Positions 1,358-31,643 of a stretch of 31,854 nucleotides of DNA are shown here, one piece after another. The first letter of the stretch is position 1, and each line of letters opens with the position of its first letter. Source of the DNA: a virus; IMG/VR virus record IMGVR_UViG_3300011992_000002, positions 1-31,854 of that record; one strand, written 5' to 3'. Position numbers and translations under genes: made by a program. The notes beneath the pieces were generated by a model. That model was not told the origin of the DNA. It saw only the letters and a list, made by a program, of their open reading frames with translations, and ran no database searches.

Positions 1358-1572
1358 ATCATCCATCACATTACGGTGGTGACACTGTTTATGAAGTTAT
1401 AAAGGTTATCATCGCGTGGAAGTTAGGTTTCAATTTAGGTAATACTGTAAAATATATTGCGCGTGCTGGCAAGAAGGGTCGTCGTAAGAATGATAAACTT
1501 ATAGACCTTAAGAAAGCACAGTTCTATCTTAACTACGAAATAGAGTTACTAGAAGGTAAACGTGAAGTATGA
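1345..1572 (+). CDS. DUF3310 family protein
   Basis: The 75-residue product begins MERVNHPSHYGGDTVYEVI and contains the NHPSHY signature, a central KYIARAGKK segment, and a C-terminal KAQFYLNYEIE helix. This order (NHPxHY, then K-Y-hydrophobic-x-R-A-G-x-K, then a D-L-x-K-A-x-x-Y-L helix) is diagnostic of DUF3310 proteins, which are widespread in phages and sometimes annotated as SaV-like or nucleotide kinases without firm evidence. Molecular function is unknown. The start ATG lies inside the previous gene and the stop overlaps the polymerase start as ATGA, so it is probably translated with the polymerase. Confidence 0.85.
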   Translation: MERVNHPSHYGGDTVYEVIKVIIAWKLGFNLGNTVKYIARAGKKGRRKNDKLIDLKKAQFYLNYEIELLEGKREV

Positions 1573-3965
1573 CAATCCAAAGAAAGCACCCGTTAGCAGA
1601 ATGCGAGAAATGCCCTCTTGCAGCTAAACGCTGTTCGCCTACAATTGGGCCAGCAAATGCAAAAGTAGCATTTGTGTCTAGATCGCCTGGTAAGTACGAC
1701 GCAATGAGTGGTAAGCCATTTTCAAATCCGCATGGTACTAAACCTGTTCTAGAACATCTATTAGCTTTATATGGAGTTGATCGAAATGATATCATTACGA
1801 CAAACATGGTACTCTGTCAGACTGACGATCCACCTAATGAAGCTCTTGCTGCGTGCAGACCAAGGCTTGAAGCAGAAATTTCTAATTGCGAACTTGTTAT
1901 CGCTGGAGGAACTGAAGCGGTCACTGGTCTTACGAGATACAGAGCTGTCTTTACTGCGCGACCCTTCGTACATCACAGAACTTCTAGTACAGGAGTTAAA
2001 CAGCGAATTATCGCAACCAATAATCCCGCCCTTGTAATACGTGATAGCGATAGTTACCCGGATATGGTGGAGGACTTTCGTAGAGCATTTGATCCCCCAC
2101 CACCAGCAATATTTCCAGAAGTGGAGATAATTAACGATGCAGATAGAGGTATTATTGCGCTTGAAAGATGGCTCAACATGCGTTTTGAGAATCCCATTGC
2201 GTCCGACCTTGAATGGAAGCCCGACAATCAATACGTGTGTGCGGGATTCTCTGCAAGACCTGAGAAAGCAGTTGTATTCGGTATGGGAGCAATTAAGTCT
2301 GAAAGAGTCAGAACTCTCCTCAAAAGATTTTATGAAAGGACTGACGTTCAATTCATCTGGCACAACGGTAAGGCTGATACCAAAGTCCTTCGGATCAATT
2401 CTATATCCGGTAGAGTAGACGAAGATACATTTCTTATGTCCTACGCGCTCGATGAAAGACCCGGCTATCACAAATTAGAGTATCTCTTATCAAGTAGATT
2501 TGGTTGGCCTGATTACGAACCAGCTAGTGTTAAATCATTTAAAAAGACAGGTGAGTTTCTTGGAAAAACCCCACAGGAACAGAAACGTTCCGAACTTGAG
2601 TTATACAAGTACAATGGTTGGGACACGGCGGGAGCTCTACAGTTACACAATTACTTTGATCCGCGCCTAGATAAAGATAATGTCCGTACTTTGTATGAGC
2701 GGCTTATCTACGCTGCGGAACGATTCACAACAGTCGAATTAAATGGATTTAATTACGATGTTGAAGAAGCAGCGAACATCTTGGATAGAGCGGCTATTCC
2801 AGCAACTATAAATCTTAAACAACAGCTTCGTGAGATAAGTGGGCATGAGGGACTTAATCCTAATAGTCCTAAACAACTCGCTCCGATCTACTATCAGCAG
2901 TATGGGCTTAAACACAAACTACGTGATATAGGTAAGAAGAAGTTACAATATAGTACTGGCAAAGAAGTACGAGAAGAAATTTTAGACGGCAGGATTGAAT
3001 GCAAAATTGGTATGCGTGAAAAGCTTGTACGATTTGCAGAAGCACACCAGACTTACGCGAAAATTATCAAACTTCGTGGTAACTATCTTGAAGGTCTAAT
3101 CCTAAGGGCGAACTCAGATGATGGAAAACTTTATTGTCGTTTTAATATCGGTGGTACTGTTAGCGGCCGTAGTTCTTCTTCTGACCCCAACTTACAGAAC
3201 ATCGCTAGAGAGGGATACGCTGAAATCCCTGGCATACGGACTCTTTTTACTCCTAGCGATAATTGTGTCATCATTAGTGCTGATTATTCACAAGCTGAAC
3301 TTAGAACTTGCGCTAAACTTAGTGGTGATAGTTCTCTGCTCAATATCTATAGGGATAGTTCTAGATCACTTCATAAGGAACGTGCAGCGGCGTTCTACGG
3401 AGAAAACTACACCTACGAAGAATACGTGAAAGCGAAGAATATTAACTTCGGTGTGACGTATGGACAAGGTGCAGATGCTTTCGCACAAATGTATCATATG
3501 CCTAAAAGTGAAGCACAAGCTTATATAGATACTTGGTGGAATGAGTTTTACGAACTAAAGGAATGGACACTTGAAACCCAAGAACGTGCTCTACGAGAAG
3601 GATTCGTTCAATCACCATTTGGGCACAAACGGAGATTCACCCTCATTACTAACGATAACATCGGGGACGTTAAGAGAGAGGCTGTTAATTCGTTACCTCA
3701 AAATATTGCTGCTTGGCTTACTATTTCTGCTTTGTGCGATCTTGCGGATAATGGCGTTCGTGTCGTTGCTACTGTCCACGATTCTATCGTGGCCGATGTA
3801 CCAATTAAGGAAGTGGATGCTACAGCAAAATTGATGCGCGATATTATGATAGAACAGCCTATTAAACAGTTAGGTTGGACTACAGACGACATACCGTTCT
3901 TGGCAGATATTAGTGTAGGACGTTCATGGGGAGAATTGGAGGAATTGGAGTTGATTGCAGCATGA
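1569..3965 (+). CDS. Uracil-DNA glycosylase-like / 3'-5' exonuclease / family A DNA polymerase fusion
   Basis: This 798-residue replicative polymerase has three parts. Residues 8-175 resemble family IV UDG: C12, C15, C83 and C96 match the four Fe-S cysteines, PGKYDAMSGKPF (40-51) matches the catalytic motif, and ATNNPALV (149-156) matches the His-Pro motif with Asn replacing His. Residues 205-365 are a DnaQ-like exonuclease: D213 and E215 (Exo I), N266/D270 (Exo II), Y348/D352 (Exo III). Residues 375-798 are the polymerase: motif A DYSQAELR with D572 and E577, motif B with K623, F627 and Y631, motif C H737-D738-S739. The fusion is known from SPO1-like phage polymerases. By alignment the Arg equivalent to E. 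coli R754 is Y619, and E883 is S739. F627 is the F762 type. The gene starts by ATGA overlap with the DUF3310 gene. Confidence 0.93.
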   Translation: MTIQRKHPLAECEKCPLAAKRCSPTIGPANAKVAFVSRSPGKYDAMSGKPFSNPHGTKPVLEHLLALYGVDRNDIITTNMVLCQTDDPPNEALAACRPRLEAEISNCELVIAGGTEAVTGLTRYRAVFTARPFVHHRTSSTGVKQRIIATNNPALVIRDSDSYPDMVEDFRRAFDPPPPAIFPEVEIINDADRGIIALERWLNMRFENPIASDLEWKPDNQYVCAGFSARPEKAVVFGMGAIKSERVRTLLKRFYERTDVQFIWHNGKADTKVLRINSISGRVDEDTFLMSYALDERPGYHKLEYLLSSRFGWPDYEPASVKSFKKTGEFLGKTPQEQKRSELELYKYNGWDTAGALQLHNYFDPRLDKDNVRTLYERLIYAAERFTTVELNGFNYDVEEAANILDRAAIPATINLKQQLREISGHEGLNPNSPKQLAPIYYQQYGLKHKLRDIGKKKLQYSTGKEVREEILDGRIECKIGMREKLVRFAEAHQTYAKIIKLRGNYLEGLILRANSDDGKLYCRFNIGGTVSGRSSSSDPNLQNIAREGYAEIPGIRTLFTPSDNCVIISADYSQAELRTCAKLSGDSSLLNIYRDSSRSLHKERAAAFYGENYTYEEYVKAKNINFGVTYGQGADAFAQMYHMPKSEAQAYIDTWWNEFYELKEWTLETQERALREGFVQSPFGHKRRFTLITNDNIGDVKREAVNSLPQNIAAWLTISALCDLADNGVRVVATVHDSIVADVPIKEVDATAKLMRDIMIEQPIKQLGWTTDDIPFLADISVGRSWGELEELELIAA

Positions 3966-7985: not shown

Positions 7986-8327
7986 TTAATTACTACAATT
8001 GATACTAGAATATGCTTTTTGTGCGTTCTCTAATATTTTGAGTGATGTACGTAAATCTGTTGGTGATAACCCATCAAAACCTTTTGGATTTGCTTTTAAG
8101 AATTTTCTACTATTGCTTACTTGTAACTCGTTAATAACTTTCTGTGCACAAATAACTTTATGTGAGGCGACTCCTTCCTGCGCCAATCTACGATTGACGA
8201 TACCAAAAGAGTGATCTATATTAATCTGATGCGTTAATAAAAAAGCTACAACAACAAGAGAAATCACATTGAATAGAAAAGCTATTGCTACTTCCCAGCG
8301 TTTTAATGGGATAATTTTTAAGGGCAT
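7986..8327 (-). CDS. Single-pass membrane protein, 113 aa
   Basis: Start taken at the ATG at 8327 (MPLKIIPLKRWE), ten bases inside the collagen-like gene; a TTG at 8357 would add ten residues. A hydrophobic segment (VAIAFLFNVISLVVVAFLL, about residues 12-30) is followed by a polar helical domain with three Cys. Upstream of the endolysin and downstream of another anchored protein, it could be a lysis accessory or spanin-like protein, but I see no lipobox and cannot name a family. Confidence 0.6.
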   Translation of the reverse strand: MPLKIIPLKRWEVAIAFLFNVISLVVVAFLLTHQINIDHSFGIVNRRLAQEGVASHKVICAQKVINELQVSNSRKFLKANPKGFDGLSPTDLRTSLKILENAQKAYSSINCSN

Positions 8328-8923
8328 GGGTGTGGGTGTAGTTTTGTAGGTTTGCAAGACGAAGGTTTTGGTGTAGTCACTGTTTTACTAGGTGTAGTTA
8401 CTGTCTTAGTAGGTGTTGTTACAGGTGTTGTTACAGTTTTAACAGGTGTAGTTATTGTTTTACCAGGTGTGGTTACGGGTGTAGTTATTGTTTTACCAGG
8501 TGTGGTTACTGTTGTTGTTACTGTTGTTGTTACAGTGGTGATTTGTGTTGACCCATTTCCGTTGTCACCTTTATCACCCTTAGCACCAGGTGGTCCAGGT
8601 GGTCCTACTAATCCAGGTATACCACGTAAACCTATTACGCCCATAAATCCTCTCTGGCCTCTATTCCCTTTCGCACCTGTTTTGCCTGTTTTGCCTATTT
8701 TACCTTGTGAACCAGTTAAACCTTGTGGGCCTGGTACGCCTGCACGTCCAACAAGACCTATGTGTCCTGGTGTACCCTCTACTATCTGTCTTTCGTGAAT
8801 AACAATTCTCTTGATTGTAGTAATTTCATGTTGCTGTTTGGTATAAAGATAACCAGCGAAAATACCACTTAACGCTATCATTAGCCAGGCAAACGTAACT
8901 CTCGTACGGCGTGAAAAATTCAT
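8318..8923 (-). CDS. Membrane-anchored collagen-like protein with Thr/Pro-rich tail
   Basis: From ATG 8923, which overlaps the preceding stop as TAATG, the product is 201 residues. After a basic start (MNFSRRTR) comes a membrane segment (about 9-27, VTFAWLMIALSGIFAGYLY), a polar helix (28-49), then 25 uninterrupted Gly-X-Y triplets (50-124, for example GPPGPPGAKGDKGDN), then a 77-residue tail of TTV, TTP and KTITTPV repeats. The Gly-X-Y run implies a collagen triple helix; the anchor with no obvious cleavage site implies a type II membrane protein facing outwards. Most phage collagen-like repeats are in tail fibres, so an anchored version among lysis genes is unusual. A virion or fibre role is not excluded. 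Confidence 0.85.
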   Translation of the reverse strand: MNFSRRTRVTFAWLMIALSGIFAGYLYTKQQHEITTIKRIVIHERQIVEGTPGHIGLVGRAGVPGPQGLTGSQGKIGKTGKTGAKGNRGQRGFMGVIGLRGIPGLVGPPGPPGAKGDKGDNGNGSTQITTVTTTVTTTVTTPGKTITTPVTTPGKTITTPVKTVTTPVTTPTKTVTTPSKTVTTPKPSSCKPTKLHPHPCP

Positions 8924-9075
8924 TAGTGTATCGCCCACCATGCTATTGTTAATGTTGTAGCAATCACAAGATATACTAACATTAGTTGAGATCGCCAACA
9001 CCATAACCACTGCAACAAGCGTTCATACCAATTACGTGCTTTACCGTTTCTAGGACGCCACCTTAAGTCAGGCAC
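8923..9075 (-). CDS. Tryptophan-rich small membrane protein, 50 aa
   Basis: An ORF starting at GTG 9075 (or TTG 9084) and ending with TAA that shares a base with the collagen-like gene start. The product MPDLRWRPRNGKARNWYERL is basic and Trp-rich, then a membrane segment (MLVYLVIATTLTIAWWAIH) ends the protein. It fills a gap between two lysis-region genes in the same strand and overlap style. Start codon uncertain; AGAGAG lies ten bases before the GTG. Function unknown. Confidence 0.55.
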   Translation of the reverse strand: MPDLRWRPRNGKARNWYERLLQWLWCWRSQLMLVYLVIATTLTIAWWAIH

Positions 9076-11909: not shown

Positions 11910-12707
11910 TTAGATAATACCATTGTCCGTATCAAAAGGTCCCCAATAACCAGTTGGATGTACAAAGTCCAACTCGCCTATTGATATCTGAGTTACTGTA
12001 GCAAACGTAGCTGAGTCTTGATATAAAACGTCTATACTAGAAGGTGTTGTTACACTTGTTACAGTTGTAGAATCAAGAATACCAGGATTATATATTTCGT
12101 TGCTACTAGGTGTAGTTACACTTTTAAGTGTAGCACTTTCAACATTTGTAAATCCACCACCAAAATCAGTTGCTCTCCACGTCGTATCAGCAGCACCGAA
12201 AATACCAATGTAACCTATTGAATATGTAGCATCTGTGACAGATACTTTATCAGTCCATACACCTGAGTTAAAGATCGCTAATACAAGAGAACTGCCATTA
12301 GCTCTGAACCAAAGTTTATCACCTGCTGATAAAGTAAATGCTGTATAATTTGTTATTGGTGTAAGCGTAGTATTTGCAGCTCGCCATATTCGTAGACCAG
12401 AGCCTGGAGCATACCAAGCAAAATAACCACCAAGACTTGAAGTATTTGGGTTTCCCACCCGCAACCATAAACCAATACCATCTACTGTATTTAATATTGG
12501 TAGTGTTAAAAATGCCTCACTATCAGCAAATTGTCTTGCATTCCAATAAGCACCACATCTAACCGCAGAAGTTGCCAAACATTGGTTACTTACAAGTTCT
12601 AAATTTGCATCAGTTGTAACTACCTTATTAGTCCATGCACCACCGTCAGAAGGCGGATTTTCATCCGCTCTCACCATCGAATCTAATACTCCATTGATCG
12701 GTGGCAT
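11910..12707 (-). CDS. Tail protein with ConA-like domain and three 20-aa repeats
   Basis: Residues 1-185 look like a concanavalin A-like jelly-roll: an opening D-S-x-V-R-A-D segment, then AYWNARQFADSEAF, GIGLWLRVGNPN, and a late TTWRATDFGGG turn, the order common in phage minor tail proteins that bind glycans. Residues 189-248 hold three copies of a repeat with ATLKSVTTPSS, TTVTSVTTPSS and SATFATVTQIS. The same repeat fills the 1162-residue protein at 28155-31643. The gene sits between distal tail protein and hub, so the domain may contact the host surface. Confidence 0.72.
   Translation of the reverse strand: MPPINGVLDSMVRADENPPSDGGAWTNKVVTTDANLELVSNQCLATSAVRCGAYWNARQFADSEAFLTLPILNTVDGIGLWLRVGNPNTSSLGGYFAWYAPGSGLRIWRAANTTLTPITNYTAFTLSAGDKLWFRANGSSLVLAIFNSGVWTDKVSVTDATYSIGYIGIFGAADTTWRATDFGGGFTNVESATLKSVTTPSSNEIYNPGILDSTTVTSVTTPSSIDVLYQDSATFATVTQISIGELDFVHPTGYWGPFDTDNGII
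11964..12143 (-). repeat. Three 60-bp coding repeats shared with the giant gene
   Basis: This part of the ConA-like gene encodes three consecutive units of about 20 residues with the core xTTPSSxx and an aromatic/Asp start (for example ILDSTTVTSVTTPSSIDVL). Their period and motif match the array at 28290-30215, about 16 kb away. Shared origin by duplication or recombination is inferred. Confidence 0.7.
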
Positions 12708-26121: not shown

Positions 26122-27606
26122 CTACAACCTAAAATCGTCATCTAGCGTTATTGCGCTAGTGTAGGTGAAGAATGTATCTGCCTCAGTCCTGTTACCAATC
26201 CCACTATACAGGTCAGAGAGTGACTCATTACGACCAAGAATGAAATACTCGTTAAAGAAATATCTTAATGCATCTGTGCAATGATTGTCGTAATCATGTT
26301 CTGTTTGTTTTGCGTTATGTCCTTCTCTGCTCTCAGCATATCGCAACGTCTTAATCTGTCTAGTTAATTCCGTACATCTTGGGTGTATAAATAAACCCGG
26401 TAAACCGTCTTCACGAACTTTAAGGTGTCTGCGTATTACCTCATATCCTGCACTACGATCAACCGGGGTAGCGTTAGCACCACCCAACGCCCACGCAATT
26501 GTATTAATTGCATCTGGATCTCGTGGATCAGCAGCTATAGCATCCACATGATAACCTTTTGGACTCTCTCTATTCTTAAGTATTTGTGCATGTTCATGAT
26601 TAGTTTTATAACTTACTGCATATTCACGCCAAACATACACACGATCTTCTTGATCTATCATAATATCTAGACAAATGAAAGGATCAACAAACCCGAAGTC
26701 AAGTGCCATCCAATTTTTCCACTGAGGCATATATTCAAAATTACGAACATGAGTCATTTCATTAAATTCTGGATAGACCATACCCTCGAAAGCAGTAAAT
26801 TCGGCGCAATACTCTTGCAGCCAATACATGCGTGACGAGTTGTTGAAGATTCTTACTAATTCTTTGTTGCAGCTACATTTGTTGTACCTACTATGCATCA
26901 ACTGTCCTGAATCATTAGCACGGATATTTGGGCAGACAGGATCGAATCCGCCAGGATATTTTAGTGTATTAACCCAAGTCGGAAAGCGCCAACTAATGTA
27001 ATCTTCTAAATCATCCCTGTGAGTATTTTGTCCAAGCTCGTATAAACCTTTATACCAGTTGAACCCCTGTGGTGTACTTGGAAAGTCTGCTGTGCCAAGT
27101 TTGTCCGAGAGTGCAGGCTCAATATACATCTGCCAAGTGCTCATTTGGTGTTTCGCAGCCTCAGACATACATACATGATCTAATCCTTCACCGACTAATC
27201 CGTCCTTATGGCCTTCTTTAGCCGATTTAACCTCAAGCAAACTATTCATTTCTTTCCAATACAACCGCATATTACCCTGTTTTACGTTATATGATTTATT
27301 ACAACGATCAAGCAAACCCAACTTTTTAAAGTCAAACCAAGCAACTCTAAATTCTTTCTCACCGAGACTGTAATCCGGCCCGACGACCCAATTAACACTA
27401 TCAGGCACAAACATTTTAAGCGTTAATTCATGTCCTGCCCATTGCGATTTACCGAACCGTCTACCTGCACAAATAACCCTAAATCGTTGTTCTGCTCTAT
27501 GAGCATCCCACTGTTCTTTACCATGCGGTTCATAATCAAGCTGTTTAAATAACTTTTCTCGACTAATTGTTAATGCGGGTGTTGTACTAGACAGCCCAAA
27601 CACCAT
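26122..27606 (-). CDS. Terminase large subunit
   Basis: Walker A is AGRRFGKS at residues 47-54. Walker B looks like HVCMSEA with E149 but Ser rather than Asp before it. A central region has C225, C244 and C246 (CPNIRAND, then NKCSCN), a possible zinc insert between ATPase and nuclease. The nuclease domain has D303 in ALDFGFVDPF, D360 in AIAADPRDPDAI and D445 near the end (NHCTDALRYF). Together these give an ATPase plus RNase H-fold nuclease for DNA packaging. The start overlaps the upstream DUF6527-like gene by 20 bases. No clear small subunit is found in the window. Confidence 0.9.
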   Translation of the reverse strand: MVFGLSSTTPALTISREKLFKQLDYEPHGKEQWDAHRAEQRFRVICAGRRFGKSQWAGHELTLKMFVPDSVNWVVGPDYSLGEKEFRVAWFDFKKLGLLDRCNKSYNVKQGNMRLYWKEMNSLLEVKSAKEGHKDGLVGEGLDHVCMSEAAKHQMSTWQMYIEPALSDKLGTADFPSTPQGFNWYKGLYELGQNTHRDDLEDYISWRFPTWVNTLKYPGGFDPVCPNIRANDSGQLMHSRYNKCSCNKELVRIFNNSSRMYWLQEYCAEFTAFEGMVYPEFNEMTHVRNFEYMPQWKNWMALDFGFVDPFICLDIMIDQEDRVYVWREYAVSYKTNHEHAQILKNRESPKGYHVDAIAADPRDPDAINTIAWALGGANATPVDRSAGYEVIRRHLKVREDGLPGLFIHPRCTELTRQIKTLRYAESREGHNAKQTEHDYDNHCTDALRYFFNEYFILGRNESLSDLYSGIGNRTEADTFFTYTSAITLDDDFRL

Positions 27607-27838
27607 CTTTCAAAAAACCATGATAACTAAAATAGACAATACTAGGACTTACAGACAGTTTATCCCCATCAAACGTCCATGTATGATGTTCTGGAATTAG
27701 TGCTCCTGTATTACCTAACGGAGTCATCATAAATATTTCATCTCTCTCTCCATAAGGCGGTCTATACATCCTATGCTGCAATGAATATTCACCGAGTTCT
27801 TTCGGCATAGTATCATCTAGTAATCGTTTACCAATCAT
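27587..27838 (-). CDS. DUF6527-like protein, 83 aa
   Basis: Residues 50-79 contain HHTWTFDGDKLSVSPSIVYF followed by SYHGFLKDGVW, which fits the H-x-W-x-F-D-G..PTxSPSI..CH-x-F-x-x-DG layout of DUF6527. The N-terminal third is Arg-rich (LQHRMYRPPYGER). Function unknown. The gene lies directly before the terminase and overlaps it by 20 bases and the preceding gene by four. Confidence 0.62.
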   Translation of the reverse strand: MIGKRLLDDTMPKELGEYSLQHRMYRPPYGERDEIFMMTPLGNTGALIPEHHTWTFDGDKLSVSPSIVYFSYHGFLKDGVWAV

Positions 27839-28128
27839 ACTAAGTTAAAATCGAATGGACCTAAGATGGGTTCTTCACTACCGATAATAGGACGGATATA
27901 AAGCTCATAGTGTGCTTTAGGCCATGCTGTGCCAGTAATAGTATCAAGCAGACAATCGACACGCATCAATACGACATTAGTTGCAAGTGCCCAAGCTACT
28001 TGATCACTACCATCTTCTTTCGCAACTCTGAAATTTACCACATAAATACTTAAATCTGTTATAGCACCTAGTCTATCTGTAACGTCTACAGATACAATTT
28101 CTATTGTTCCAGCATTTAAGTCATCCAT
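27835..28128 (-). CDS. Hypothetical beta-rich structural protein, 97 aa
   Basis: MDDLNAGTIEIVSVDVTDRL, then VNFRVAKEDGSD, MRVDCLLDTITGTAWPKAHY and a final ELYIRPIIGSEEPILGPFDF. The alternating strands resemble a small beta-sandwich, common in phage structural proteins. RBS-like AAAGGGGG lies about a dozen bases upstream. No family name assigned. Confidence 0.58.
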   Translation of the reverse strand: MDDLNAGTIEIVSVDVTDRLGAITDLSIYVVNFRVAKEDGSDQVAWALATNVVLMRVDCLLDTITGTAWPKAHYELYIRPIIGSEEPILGPFDFNLV

Positions 28129-28154: not shown

Positions 28155-31100
28155 TTAAATTGCAGCTTTGGCTCTCCATCTAGTCGTCGTAGTTACTCCA
28201 AAACGTCCTATCGCAGCTTCTGTGTTCCAACGTCTATAAGCAGTACCAACTAAATATATTTCTGCAACAGGTCCATATCCAACTACTCTACTTATTGATG
28301 TAGTCGTCGATAATAAAGAGCTATCCACATACTGTGCATTCTCTGTATATGTTAGCACTGTATTACTACTAACCACTACAACATTTGTTGTCGTTAATCC
28401 TTCTGTATATATTAGTGCAGTAATGCCGGCTACTGTACTACTATCAGTGTAAGCTGCAAGGTCTGCGCTCAGCACCTTAGTAGCACCAGTCACCGATACA
28501 TTATCTGTACCTGCTAGTATGTCGGTAGGTATTACGTAAGTCACACCAGCAATAGTTGTACTATCTGTATAATTGTTATTCGCATTAGGCGTGTATATGT
28601 CACTGCTAAGTACGTATGTAGTACCTGTCGGTATTGCACTATCTATGTATGCAGCAAAATCGGTGGTACTTACTTGAGAAACTCCCACAGGGGTTGTGGC
28701 GTCTACATATTGTGCTGCATCAAGGGTCGTAACTGTCGTGTTAGATGACGTAGTGGAGTTATCAATGTAATTGCTAATCTCAATTGCGTTAGGTGTTGTA
28801 ATGTTAGTAGGGATTGAACTATCTATGTAAGCAGCTACATCTGTTGTGTTTAAACTAGTAGTACCGCTTACGGTAGGACTGTCTACATAGGCAGCTACGT
28901 CTAAAGTAGTAACTACCGTACTGGTGGCTAAGGTTTGTTGATCTACGTACTGTGCTGTATCTACGCTGCTAGGTGTAGTAACTGTAGTTAGTGTCGCACT
29001 ATCACCGCCGGCGCTAGATTCAAACTCTGTGGCACTTACAGTCGTAATACTCGTCAGTGTGGTATCATCTACATATTGTGCTGTATCTATACTACTTGGT
29101 GTGGTAACACTGGTTAAAGTGTTCAAATCAACTACATCATAAGCCTCTATAGTACTAATAGCTGTTTCACTAGTATTAGTGCTTAAATCGACGTAATTAG
29201 CTACATCAGCCGTACTAGGCGTACTCACACCACTGATAATCACACCATCTACATAGGCTGAAATATCGCTAAAAGATACCGATGTAATACTGGTTATTAT
29301 ACTAGAATCGGGTATATTGTGTTCTTCTAGCGAGGATAGGCTAGTAACACTATTTATTGATATACCATCTACATAAGCAGCCACATCTGTGCTATTTACA
29401 GATGTAATACCAGCTGTCGTGGACTGGTCTACAACACTTTCTATGTCGGTACTACTAGGTATAGTCACACTTTGTGGTGTATTTGCATCAACAAATACAA
29501 CTATATCACTTGTAGACAGGCTTGTTGTGCTACTTGTTGTAGAGGCATCTAGATAAGCAGCTATATCTGACGTAGTTACTGTTGTTTTACCACTGACCGT
29601 GGTACTATCTGGTATATCGTGTTCTTCTAATGCAGATGGTGTGGTAATACTAGTTAATGTGCTGCTATCAATATATGCTGCAACATCTGTCGTACTTAAA
29701 CTAGTCACACTAGTTAAGGTTGTGGCATCTACATAAGGAGATAACTCACTTGCAACCAGTGAGGTAACACTTGTCGTGGTACTACTATCTATTGCTGCAT
29801 ATATATTTGTGCTACTTGGCGTAGTAGTGCTGGCTGTGGTAGCACTCTCTACATATTGTGTGTTTTCAGTAGCACTTATGGACGTGACGCTGCTATCTAC
29901 GCTGCTATCTATGAATGCAGATATGTCAGTGCTAGACGGCGTGGTAATACCTGCCGGTGTGCTGCTATCAATATATGCTGCAACGTCCGTGCTAGTTAGA
30001 GAAGTCGTGCTACTAATTGTAGTAACATCATAGGTAGTATGTTCTTCTGTTGCACTTAATGATGTAACGCCGGCTACTGTTGCACTATCTACATATGCAG
30101 CTAATTCTGTACTAGATGGTGTTGTTATACCACCTATTGTAGCTACTTCTACATAAGCTGTCAATTCTGTACTAGATGGTGTAGTGATACTTGTTATTGT
30201 ACTAGTGTCTAGTGTAGGTGCAGCCGCCGCGCCCGCCTGGTAGTGTGACAAGACTTGTGCCGCCGACAACTCGACGTTGTAGACCGCGACCTCGTCTACA
30301 CGGCCGGTACAGAAGTTGCCGTTCGCGGGGTCGGACGCGCCGCGCGCCCCGATCACAAGCTGGTTCGTGATCGCCCCCAGCACCGTCGCAAAGCTTGTGT
30401 TCTGAACCGACTGGACACCGTTCAGATATACCGTCGCTGTAGTCGTCGAGTTGTTGTAGGTGACGACGACGTGGTAGGTGGTTGAGAGCAGAACCGTGTT
30501 CGCGGCCGTCGATTCCTGCCCCTGCGCGCCGCCGCCGCAGATCACCAGGGTCGCGTGGCCGTTTGTGCCGTCGCTGATGATCCTGAGCTCGTAGCCGCCG
30601 TCGTTGACACCGTCGAATATGCCGACGATGTTGCTCTCCGTCGCCGCCGCGCCGAGCGTCGTCAGGTTGAACCAACCCTCAAGCGACAGCGTCCCCGTAA
30701 TCTGCAAGTTCGCCGCGTTAGCAACCTCAACGTAACCGGACGTACCGTTCAACGTGATACAGGTGTTACCGTCATCGACGAAGCCAACAGAACCGTAGGT
30801 CGTCCCAGCCCCGACATGGTTCGACGGATTCGAGTCCTTACTGTCAGCGAACGTGCCCGATGCTTCACCGAGTCGCCAGTACGAGACGAGGCCCGTCTCC
30901 GCGAGGATCGTGCTCGCATAGGCACCCTTTGCGTACAAATCTGTACTAGATGGTGTAGTTACTCCACTAATAGTAGCTACTTCTGTATAATCAACGCTTT
31001 CTACACTAGATGGTGTAGTGATACTTGTAATTGTAGAGGCATCGACATATACAGCAGGCGATGGCGCGTAGCCTGGAGTAACAATGCTCTCGACCGCGCC

Positions 31101-31643
31101 ACCGTTCTCGAACACCGAAGTTGTTGCGGTGGCGCTCGTCGAAGTGTTCGCAGTGATCTGCAGATCAATCTGCATGTAGAGCTTGTCGCCGACCGCAAAG
31201 TCGGTCGCCGCTCCAGTACCAGATGCCGTAACCGTCTGACCTGCTGACGTGAACCCGGTTGATGCTGCCGCCATGTTGACGATCTCGGTATAGACGCCTG
31301 CCGAGTCTCGCTTACCCAGACGAACATGGATTACGCCCGTAAGGGTGCCCGACGACGAACTGAAGTGCATCGAGCACGACCACGAACCGGCCGCAATCGT
31401 TTGACCCTCCAGGGACGTGTCATCGAGGATGGCACCGTTTACGTCGCCGAATGCGGGCTCCGAGGCTGCACCCGCAAAGCCTGTGATGTAGTGTTGCGTA
31501 TGAAGAACGCCCCAACCGCTAGCCGACTTCCCCGTCTTGTTCGTAACGGACGTCGAAGACGCTGGAGCCGTAGCAAGCAGCGTATTGGCCGTCGTAACGG
31601 TTGTTGCGGCGGTGCCACTGAGATACGCGGTTAGCGCGGCCAT
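28155..31643 (-). CDS. Giant repeat protein with inserted LamG domain, 1162 aa
   Basis: Residues 1-197 form a beta-rich module (for example GDKLYMQIDLQITANTSTSA). Residues 198-238 hold two 20-residue repeats, then 245-470 a LamG/ConA-like domain (GLVSYWRLGEASGTF, YVEVANAANLQITGTLSLEG, RVDEVAVYNVELSAAQVLSH), then about 32 repeats (477-1117) such as YVDSATVAGVTSLSATE. The last 45 residues are a polar tail. G+C is about 60% in the module and LamG parts and about 40% in the repeats. By family analogy LamG modules bind glycans, so a host-surface role for a tail or virion protein is likely. Location at the 5' side of the terminase gene is unusual for a fibre. A virion-independent role is possible. 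Confidence 0.8.
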   Translation of the reverse strand: MAALTAYLSGTAATTVTTANTLLATAPASSTSVTNKTGKSASGWGVLHTQHYITGFAGAASEPAFGDVNGAILDDTSLEGQTIAAGSWSCSMHFSSSSGTLTGVIHVRLGKRDSAGVYTEIVNMAAASTGFTSAGQTVTASGTGAATDFAVGDKLYMQIDLQITANTSTSATATTSVFENGGAVESIVTPGYAPSPAVYVDASTITSITTPSSVESVDYTEVATISGVTTPSSTDLYAKGAYASTILAETGLVSYWRLGEASGTFADSKDSNPSNHVGAGTTYGSVGFVDDGNTCITLNGTSGYVEVANAANLQITGTLSLEGWFNLTTLGAAATESNIVGIFDGVNDGGYELRIISDGTNGHATLVICGGGAQGQESTAANTVLLSTTYHVVVTYNNSTTTATVYLNGVQSVQNTSFATVLGAITNQLVIGARGASDPANGNFCTGRVDEVAVYNVELSAAQVLSHYQAGAAAAPTLDTSTITSITTPSSTELTAYVEVATIGGITTPSSTELAAYVDSATVAGVTSLSATEEHTTYDVTTISSTTSLTSTDVAAYIDSSTPAGITTPSSTDISAFIDSSVDSSVTSISATENTQYVESATTASTTTPSSTNIYAAIDSSTTTSVTSLVASELSPYVDATTLTSVTSLSTTDVAAYIDSSTLTSITTPSALEEHDIPDSTTVSGKTTVTTSDIAAYLDASTTSSTTSLSTSDIVVFVDANTPQSVTIPSSTDIESVVDQSTTAGITSVNSTDVAAYVDGISINSVTSLSSLEEHNIPDSSIITSITSVSFSDISAYVDGVIISGVSTPSTADVANYVDLSTNTSETAISTIEAYDVVDLNTLTSVTTPSSIDTAQYVDDTTLTSITTVSATEFESSAGGDSATLTTVTTPSSVDTAQYVDQQTLATSTVVTTLDVAAYVDSPTVSGTTSLNTTDVAAYIDSSIPTNITTPNAIEISNYIDNSTTSSNTTVTTLDAAQYVDATTPVGVSQVSTTDFAAYIDSAIPTGTTYVLSSDIYTPNANNNYTDSTTIAGVTYVIPTDILAGTDNVSVTGATKVLSADLAAYTDSSTVAGITALIYTEGLTTTNVVVVSSNTVLTYTENAQYVDSSLLSTTTSISRVVGYGPVAEIYLVGTAYRRWNTEAAIGRFGVTTTTRWRAKAAI
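28290..30215 (-). repeat. Coding tandem array, about 32 units of 60 bp
   Basis: Each unit encodes about 20 residues in the pattern [YF][VI]DSSTxxSxTTxSSTDxAA. The period is 60 bases over nearly the whole array, so consecutive units fall in the same phase. A few units are two to six residues longer (near 28580-28600 and 29010). Units differ in many positions, more in the third codon base than in the TTPSS core by inspection. This is a protein repeat, not a CRISPR array: no spacer/repeat contrast, and it lies inside an open frame. Confidence 0.88.
30932..31052 (-). repeat. Two units of the 60-bp repeat before the LamG domain
   Basis: Encodes residues 198-238 with YVDASTITSITTPSSVES and YTEVATISGVTTPSSTDL. 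The G+C falls to about 40% between high-G+C flanks, as in the main array, so the LamG domain sits inside the array rather than beside it. Confidence 0.8.

Follow-up and report, generated by a model that had tools for sequence, protein, structure and literature searches.

A 20-residue repeat array upstream of the terminase gene in uncultured phages: a candidate receptor-binding fibre with exchangeable domains

The stretch of DNA analysed here, referred to as the window, is an IMG/VR virus record of 31854 bases. It carried an ORF encoding a long array of 20-aa repeat units, and downstream of this ORF, on the same strand, a 97-aa ORF, an 83-aa ORF and the genes for the terminase large subunit (TerL), portal, protease, major capsid protein (MCP), tail tube and tape measure. 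The features needed below are as follows.

28155-31643, minus strand: array gene, an ORF of 1162 aa
31050-31643, minus strand: N-terminal 198 aa of its product, unnamed (60% GC, GC3 0.65)
30930-31049, minus strand: units 1 and 2 (20 aa each), which precede the inserted domain (position matrix)
30937-31035, minus strand: one copy of a two-unit block, flanking the inserted domain together with the next
30103-30201, minus strand: the other copy of the block, with 81% identity over 99 bp to 30937-31035
30216-30929, minus strand: inserted Laminin_G_3 (ConA-like) domain (Pfam E 1.6e-20)
28272-30215, minus strand: main array, with 32 of the 20-aa units (position matrix; AF2 on the first ten units, 29616-30215)
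28158-28271, minus strand: C-terminal basic aromatic tail (YRRWNTEAAIGRFGVTTTTRWRAKAAI)
27835-28128, minus strand: conserved 97-aa partner ORF (orf97), between the array gene and TerL
26122-27606, minus strand: TerL (phrog_2, 1e-24)
12147-12707, minus strand: globular domain encoded by gene 11910-12707 of the tail module, of a family also inserted in the array proteins of relatives
11910-12146, minus strand: about three 20-aa units and the conserved C-terminus of the same tail-module gene

No family was found for orf97 in a family search; two of its 30 members gave a weak LtfC-like match (best E 0.0037), and there was a short resemblance to Wollypog gp88 (probability 11%), neither of which was adopted. 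The 83-aa ORF between orf97 and TerL (27587-27838, minus strand) gave a match to DUF6527 below threshold (E 0.00085). On the plus strand, a single ORF (1569-3965) combined a family A DNA polymerase (DNA_pol_A, 6e-66) with an N-terminal domain of the uracil-DNA glycosylase superfamily (UDG, 1e-14). A TerL search in genomes for the host returned only two loci, both remote.

The original prediction, made from the sequence alone, had placed an exact 60-bp array of 32 units here, and the array was indeed located there, on the minus strand within the ORF 28155-31643. With the window as training sequence, a position matrix detected 32 units in 28272-30215, as predicted, but also two more in 30930-31049, upstream of the inserted domain, for a total of 34. 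The period was nearly exact, as the spacing in the main array was 20 aa save for single spacings of 22 and 26 aa, and residue identity at a lag of 20 aa was 0.32 versus a maximum of 0.172 at any lag from 10 to 40 in 2000 shuffles. The sequence, in contrast, was diverged, with a mean pairwise unit identity of 36% for protein and 49% for DNA, and Tandem Repeats Finder (TRF) reported no 60-bp array over the gene. Neighbouring units were no more similar than distant ones, that is, no higher-order repeat was found in the array. The unit of the window read Y-V/I-D-S-S-T-I-T/S-S/G-V/I-T-T/S-P/V/L-S-S-T-D/E-I/V-A-A, and the array was rich in Ser, Thr and Ala and acidic, with only 3 Lys/Arg in 648 residues and a net charge of about -2 per unit. 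As had been anticipated, no family covering the unit was found in Pfam, PHROG, NCBIfam or PDB; a Pfam match to NCBP3 (4.8e-7) was dismissed as compositional, no single stretch passing alone. Judged from the sequence, the 20-aa unit is a new, unnamed repeat family, and the function of the protein appears to be of a known kind.

Relatives were gathered by the unit consensus (13 loci) and by a TerL profile (80 loci), and clustering of TerL at 90% identity yielded 51 groups, among which 41 phage groups had a testable ORF upstream of TerL. The period of this ORF was exactly 20 in 28 of the 41, 18 in five, 19 in one, 21 in one and other in two, and the rest had no clear period. The array gene lay upstream of orf97, TerL and portal, orf97 being conserved beside it in most relatives, and the family-wide unit was [YF][VT][DE][SA][AN]T[VI]x[VL]x[LI][TS]PS[SGA]T[ED]. 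Complete array ORFs contained 10 to 36 units with a net charge of about -2 per unit in most relatives (range -1.3 to -3.7), and usually ended in a short, basic, aromatic R-W/R-Y tail. Of 163 cases of extra inter-unit residues, 156 lay at the unit border (unit positions 16-20). Phage records gave no match to the arrays of relatives, and the 20-aa unit was seen in no isolate, although the low-complexity filter of BLAST may mask it. The composition given above would suit a Ser/Thr-rich linker that is disordered, has no rod structure and only spaces binding domains; such a linker is, however, quite unlikely in view of the strict 20-aa phase, with D3, T6, hydrophobic residues at 7, 9 and 11, P13 and D/E17 kept across many diverged phages, and of the clustering of insertions at one unit border.

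Some arrays of relatives departed from that of the window. Arrays with an 18-aa period were present at the same place in L050 (6630-9416), L052 (6703-9690) and L051 (7266-9671), and the units of L050 and L052 were basic (RSPIKVLSATGTGVATLI) and almost without acids, yet with the aromatic tail at the end. Within a single protein of L013 (1-2649) and of L017 (6641-11341), runs of units were separated by a recurring cassette, about 35 aa long (QPLLIRLG..RLHNN.L.PADSVRVNY). Two or three successive array genes, each with its own domains, preceded TerL in L090 (4934-7471 and 7986-9674), L070 and L080.

Embedded between units 2 and 3 of the window's array was the inserted domain, a clear member of Laminin_G_3 (74.2 bits versus a gathering threshold of 27.6), which differs from the usual Laminin_G_3/ConA-like domains in sitting between two array repeat units. 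Its GC content was 62% and its GC3 0.80, versus a GC3 of 0.15-0.25 in the units; the values for TerL, MCP and tape measure were 0.27-0.41, and that for the N-terminal part (about 196-198 aa) was 0.65. Because of this alien GC3 and of the two-unit block duplicated with 81% identity on both sides, the domain looks like a foreign cassette caught in the array, with the flanking units duplicated. A search of viral_contigs revealed no relatives of the whole protein, the N-terminal part or the LamG domain, and the only match in phage records was the LamG region to Synechococcus phage S-SCSM1. The original prediction had overlooked this domain, both units on its far side and the second unit-bearing gene (11910-12707). 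Tandem repeats in a phage protein are also known from crAssphage, whose BACON repeats are of carbohydrate-binding type and are discussed as an evolutionary hotspot (PMC6949934); the crAssphage repeat is the whole BACON domain, whereas the repeat of the window is a 20-aa unit with binding-type domains inserted. The BACON profile had no match in the window (E 0.01) or the relatives (E 0.1).

Comparison of close relatives revealed both domain exchange and differences in unit number, the latter resting on metagenome assemblies, in which repeats can be misassembled. L044 and L046 had 98.9% identical TerL DNA and 90-97% identity in the segments just outside the inserted domain, which itself was no more than 54.5% identical; conversely, the inserted domains of L044 and L054 were 92.2% identical, with 86.2% for TerL and 59.8% for the downstream array. 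A hypervariable binding-type domain was thus exchanged between close relatives, and related domains were N-terminal in some array proteins and internal in others. Three units of L046 were missing from L044. L042 and L043 shared 99.9% identity over 7986 bp, yet their arrays, with a 19-aa period, differed by 117 bp and 564 bp, and at both junctions the match blocks overlapped, by 24 and 32 bp, as would be expected if direct repeats had mediated a deletion or gain. Unit gain and loss, as had been proposed, is in agreement with the range of 10 to 36 units and with differences even between near-identical phages; a constant unit number, which would have spoken against the proposal, was not what the relatives had. 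Retention of the repeat while unit number changes and domains swap fits a rapid change of the phage adhesion target.

Ten units (29616-30215) were modelled with AF2 as a single chain, using 27 aligned natural runs, and were predicted to form a beta-solenoid with pLDDT 90.4 and pTM 0.82; the model of the C-terminal part was poor (pLDDT 52). The stacked beta structure suggested earlier was in this sense reproduced, with the serious caveat that AF2 is documented to give confident but unrealistic solenoids for 20-aa repeats, notably with stacked acids, 3p4g being the calcium exception among such solenoids (PMC11795689). Since the array carries about -2 net charges per unit, the predicted fold is provisional; aligning diverged natural units lowers the risk of this bias and does not remove it. 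Foldseek of the model against PDB gave no match at E 0.001, and a BFVD search was weak (best E 1.2e-3). Among solved chains, the model aligned most closely to 3p4g, the calcium-dependent ice-binding (antifreeze) RTX beta-helix of Marinomonas (Z 17.9, rmsd 2.0 across 191 aa), and to CsgA 8c50 (Z 18.9, but rmsd 8.3), with sequence identities to the array model of only 7% and 4%, respectively. The unit columns lacked the GGxGxDxUx of the RTX calcium beta-roll, and no HemolysinCabind match was found with Pfam. A beta-solenoid rises by about 0.48 nm per rung. If the solenoid model is right, the 32 rungs would span only about 15 nm, which does not agree with the long stalk initially proposed.

A rod about three times longer would result if the units, still serving in a fibre, instead formed a trimer resembling a triple beta-spiral (strand, Pro/Gly turn, strand). 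The family unit, T-V-x-V-x-L-x-P-S-G-T-E, does have alternating hydrophobics followed by a P-S-G/S-T turn, the pattern of trimeric viral shafts, and AF2, which was run on one chain only, is biased towards solenoids. We regard the trimer as possible and as the less probable fold, because the single-chain solenoid was confident from an alignment of diverged rather than perfect repeats, the period is 20 as opposed to about 15 in adenovirus shafts, no PDB fibre was matched by sequence, and the periods of 18, 19 and 21 at the same genomic position in some relatives are easy for a solenoid rung.

The units were also found in the tail module, in the gene 11910-12707, which has a weakly Sipho_tail-like gene on one side and the next conserved gene of the tail on the other. 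In L003, L005, L099 and L100, a protein of 74-90 aa at the same place consisted of the unit part and the C-terminus alone; the gene of the window had acquired a globular domain whose family is otherwise seen in the array proteins of relatives. As Pfam gave no name to this domain, we do not call it a lectin. At one end of the tail module, 8318-9010 (minus strand) encoded a protein of 230 aa that combined a TTPVTTPGKTVTTP repeat with a collagen-like GxxGxxG stretch and a run of hydrophobic residues at the N-terminus. TRF reported arrays at 8370-8535, and a similar collagen-like protein was present at the same end in L102.

The array gene had been described as transcribed before the packaging genes instead of with the tail fibres. 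The units in the tail module do not bear out this separation, nor is the position itself unusual: like the window, the cultured actinophages Shrew (Curtobacterium) and Wollypog (Arthrobacter) have large structural genes just upstream of TerL, namely gp43 and gp44, annotated as minor tail proteins, in Shrew, and gp89, annotated as a minor tail protein near the genome end, in Wollypog, in which TerL is gene 1. Two large predicted tail genes likewise lie just upstream of TerL in Arthrobacter cluster AQ phages (PMC5513430). The TerL proteins of Shrew and Wollypog were 28-34% identical to that of the window. Because gp43, gp44 and gp89 differ from the window's array in having neither a 20-aa period nor a match to the unit, the analogy is one of position only. 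By this analogy, and by the units in the tail-module gene, the array protein may be placed in the tail.

A head fibre or capsid decoration would agree with a gene co-directional with, and directly upstream of, the packaging and head genes; we consider it unlikely, given that both the 20-aa unit and the globular-domain family occur in the tail module and that the genes at the same place in cultured relatives are minor tail proteins, by annotation only. As the evidence for a virion location is indirect, the array protein could also be a product released or displayed apart from the virion, for instance a decoy that is secreted or a matrix protein, but its gene lies within a run of structural genes with the conserved orf97 and its unit recurs in the tail gene cluster, which makes such a product very improbable.

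Taken together, the Laminin_G_3 domain, domain swapping, unit gain and loss, insertions at unit borders, the AF2 model, the units in the tail module and the position next to TerL favour, at somewhat better than even confidence, a receptor-binding fibre of the virion, most likely a tail-attached one, in which a stacked-beta rod carries exchangeable domains. Each 20-aa unit would form one rung of the rod, and the border between units would accept loops and whole domains. Displayed on this rod would be the N-terminal domain and the lectin-fold domain inserted in the array, and these may bind host-surface glycans or other polymers, while the short C-terminal R-W/R-Y tail, perhaps with the 97-aa partner, would anchor it. 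Diversity would arise from exchange of inserted domains and from gain and loss of units by recombination between similar units. The adhesin role suggested at the outset is likewise favoured by the lectin-fold domain and domain swapping in the sequences. A conserved C-terminus with a variable N-terminus is, however, a reversed polarity unusual for tail fibres, and counts against a fibre. More tentatively, these proteins might represent a new class of fibre, a single-chain acidic beta-solenoid with rungs of 18-21 aa, a C-terminal R-W/R-Y anchor and exchanged lectin-type domains plugged in at rung borders, widespread in uncultured phages.

A widespread and hitherto unlabelled repeat family thus marks a probable host-recognition gene in a large group of uncultured phages. 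The array also offers a natural case in which to test if the solenoids predicted by AF2 for diverged 20-aa repeats exist. The units and the domains attached to them are shuffled, and the family may help to locate receptor-binding genes in viromes.
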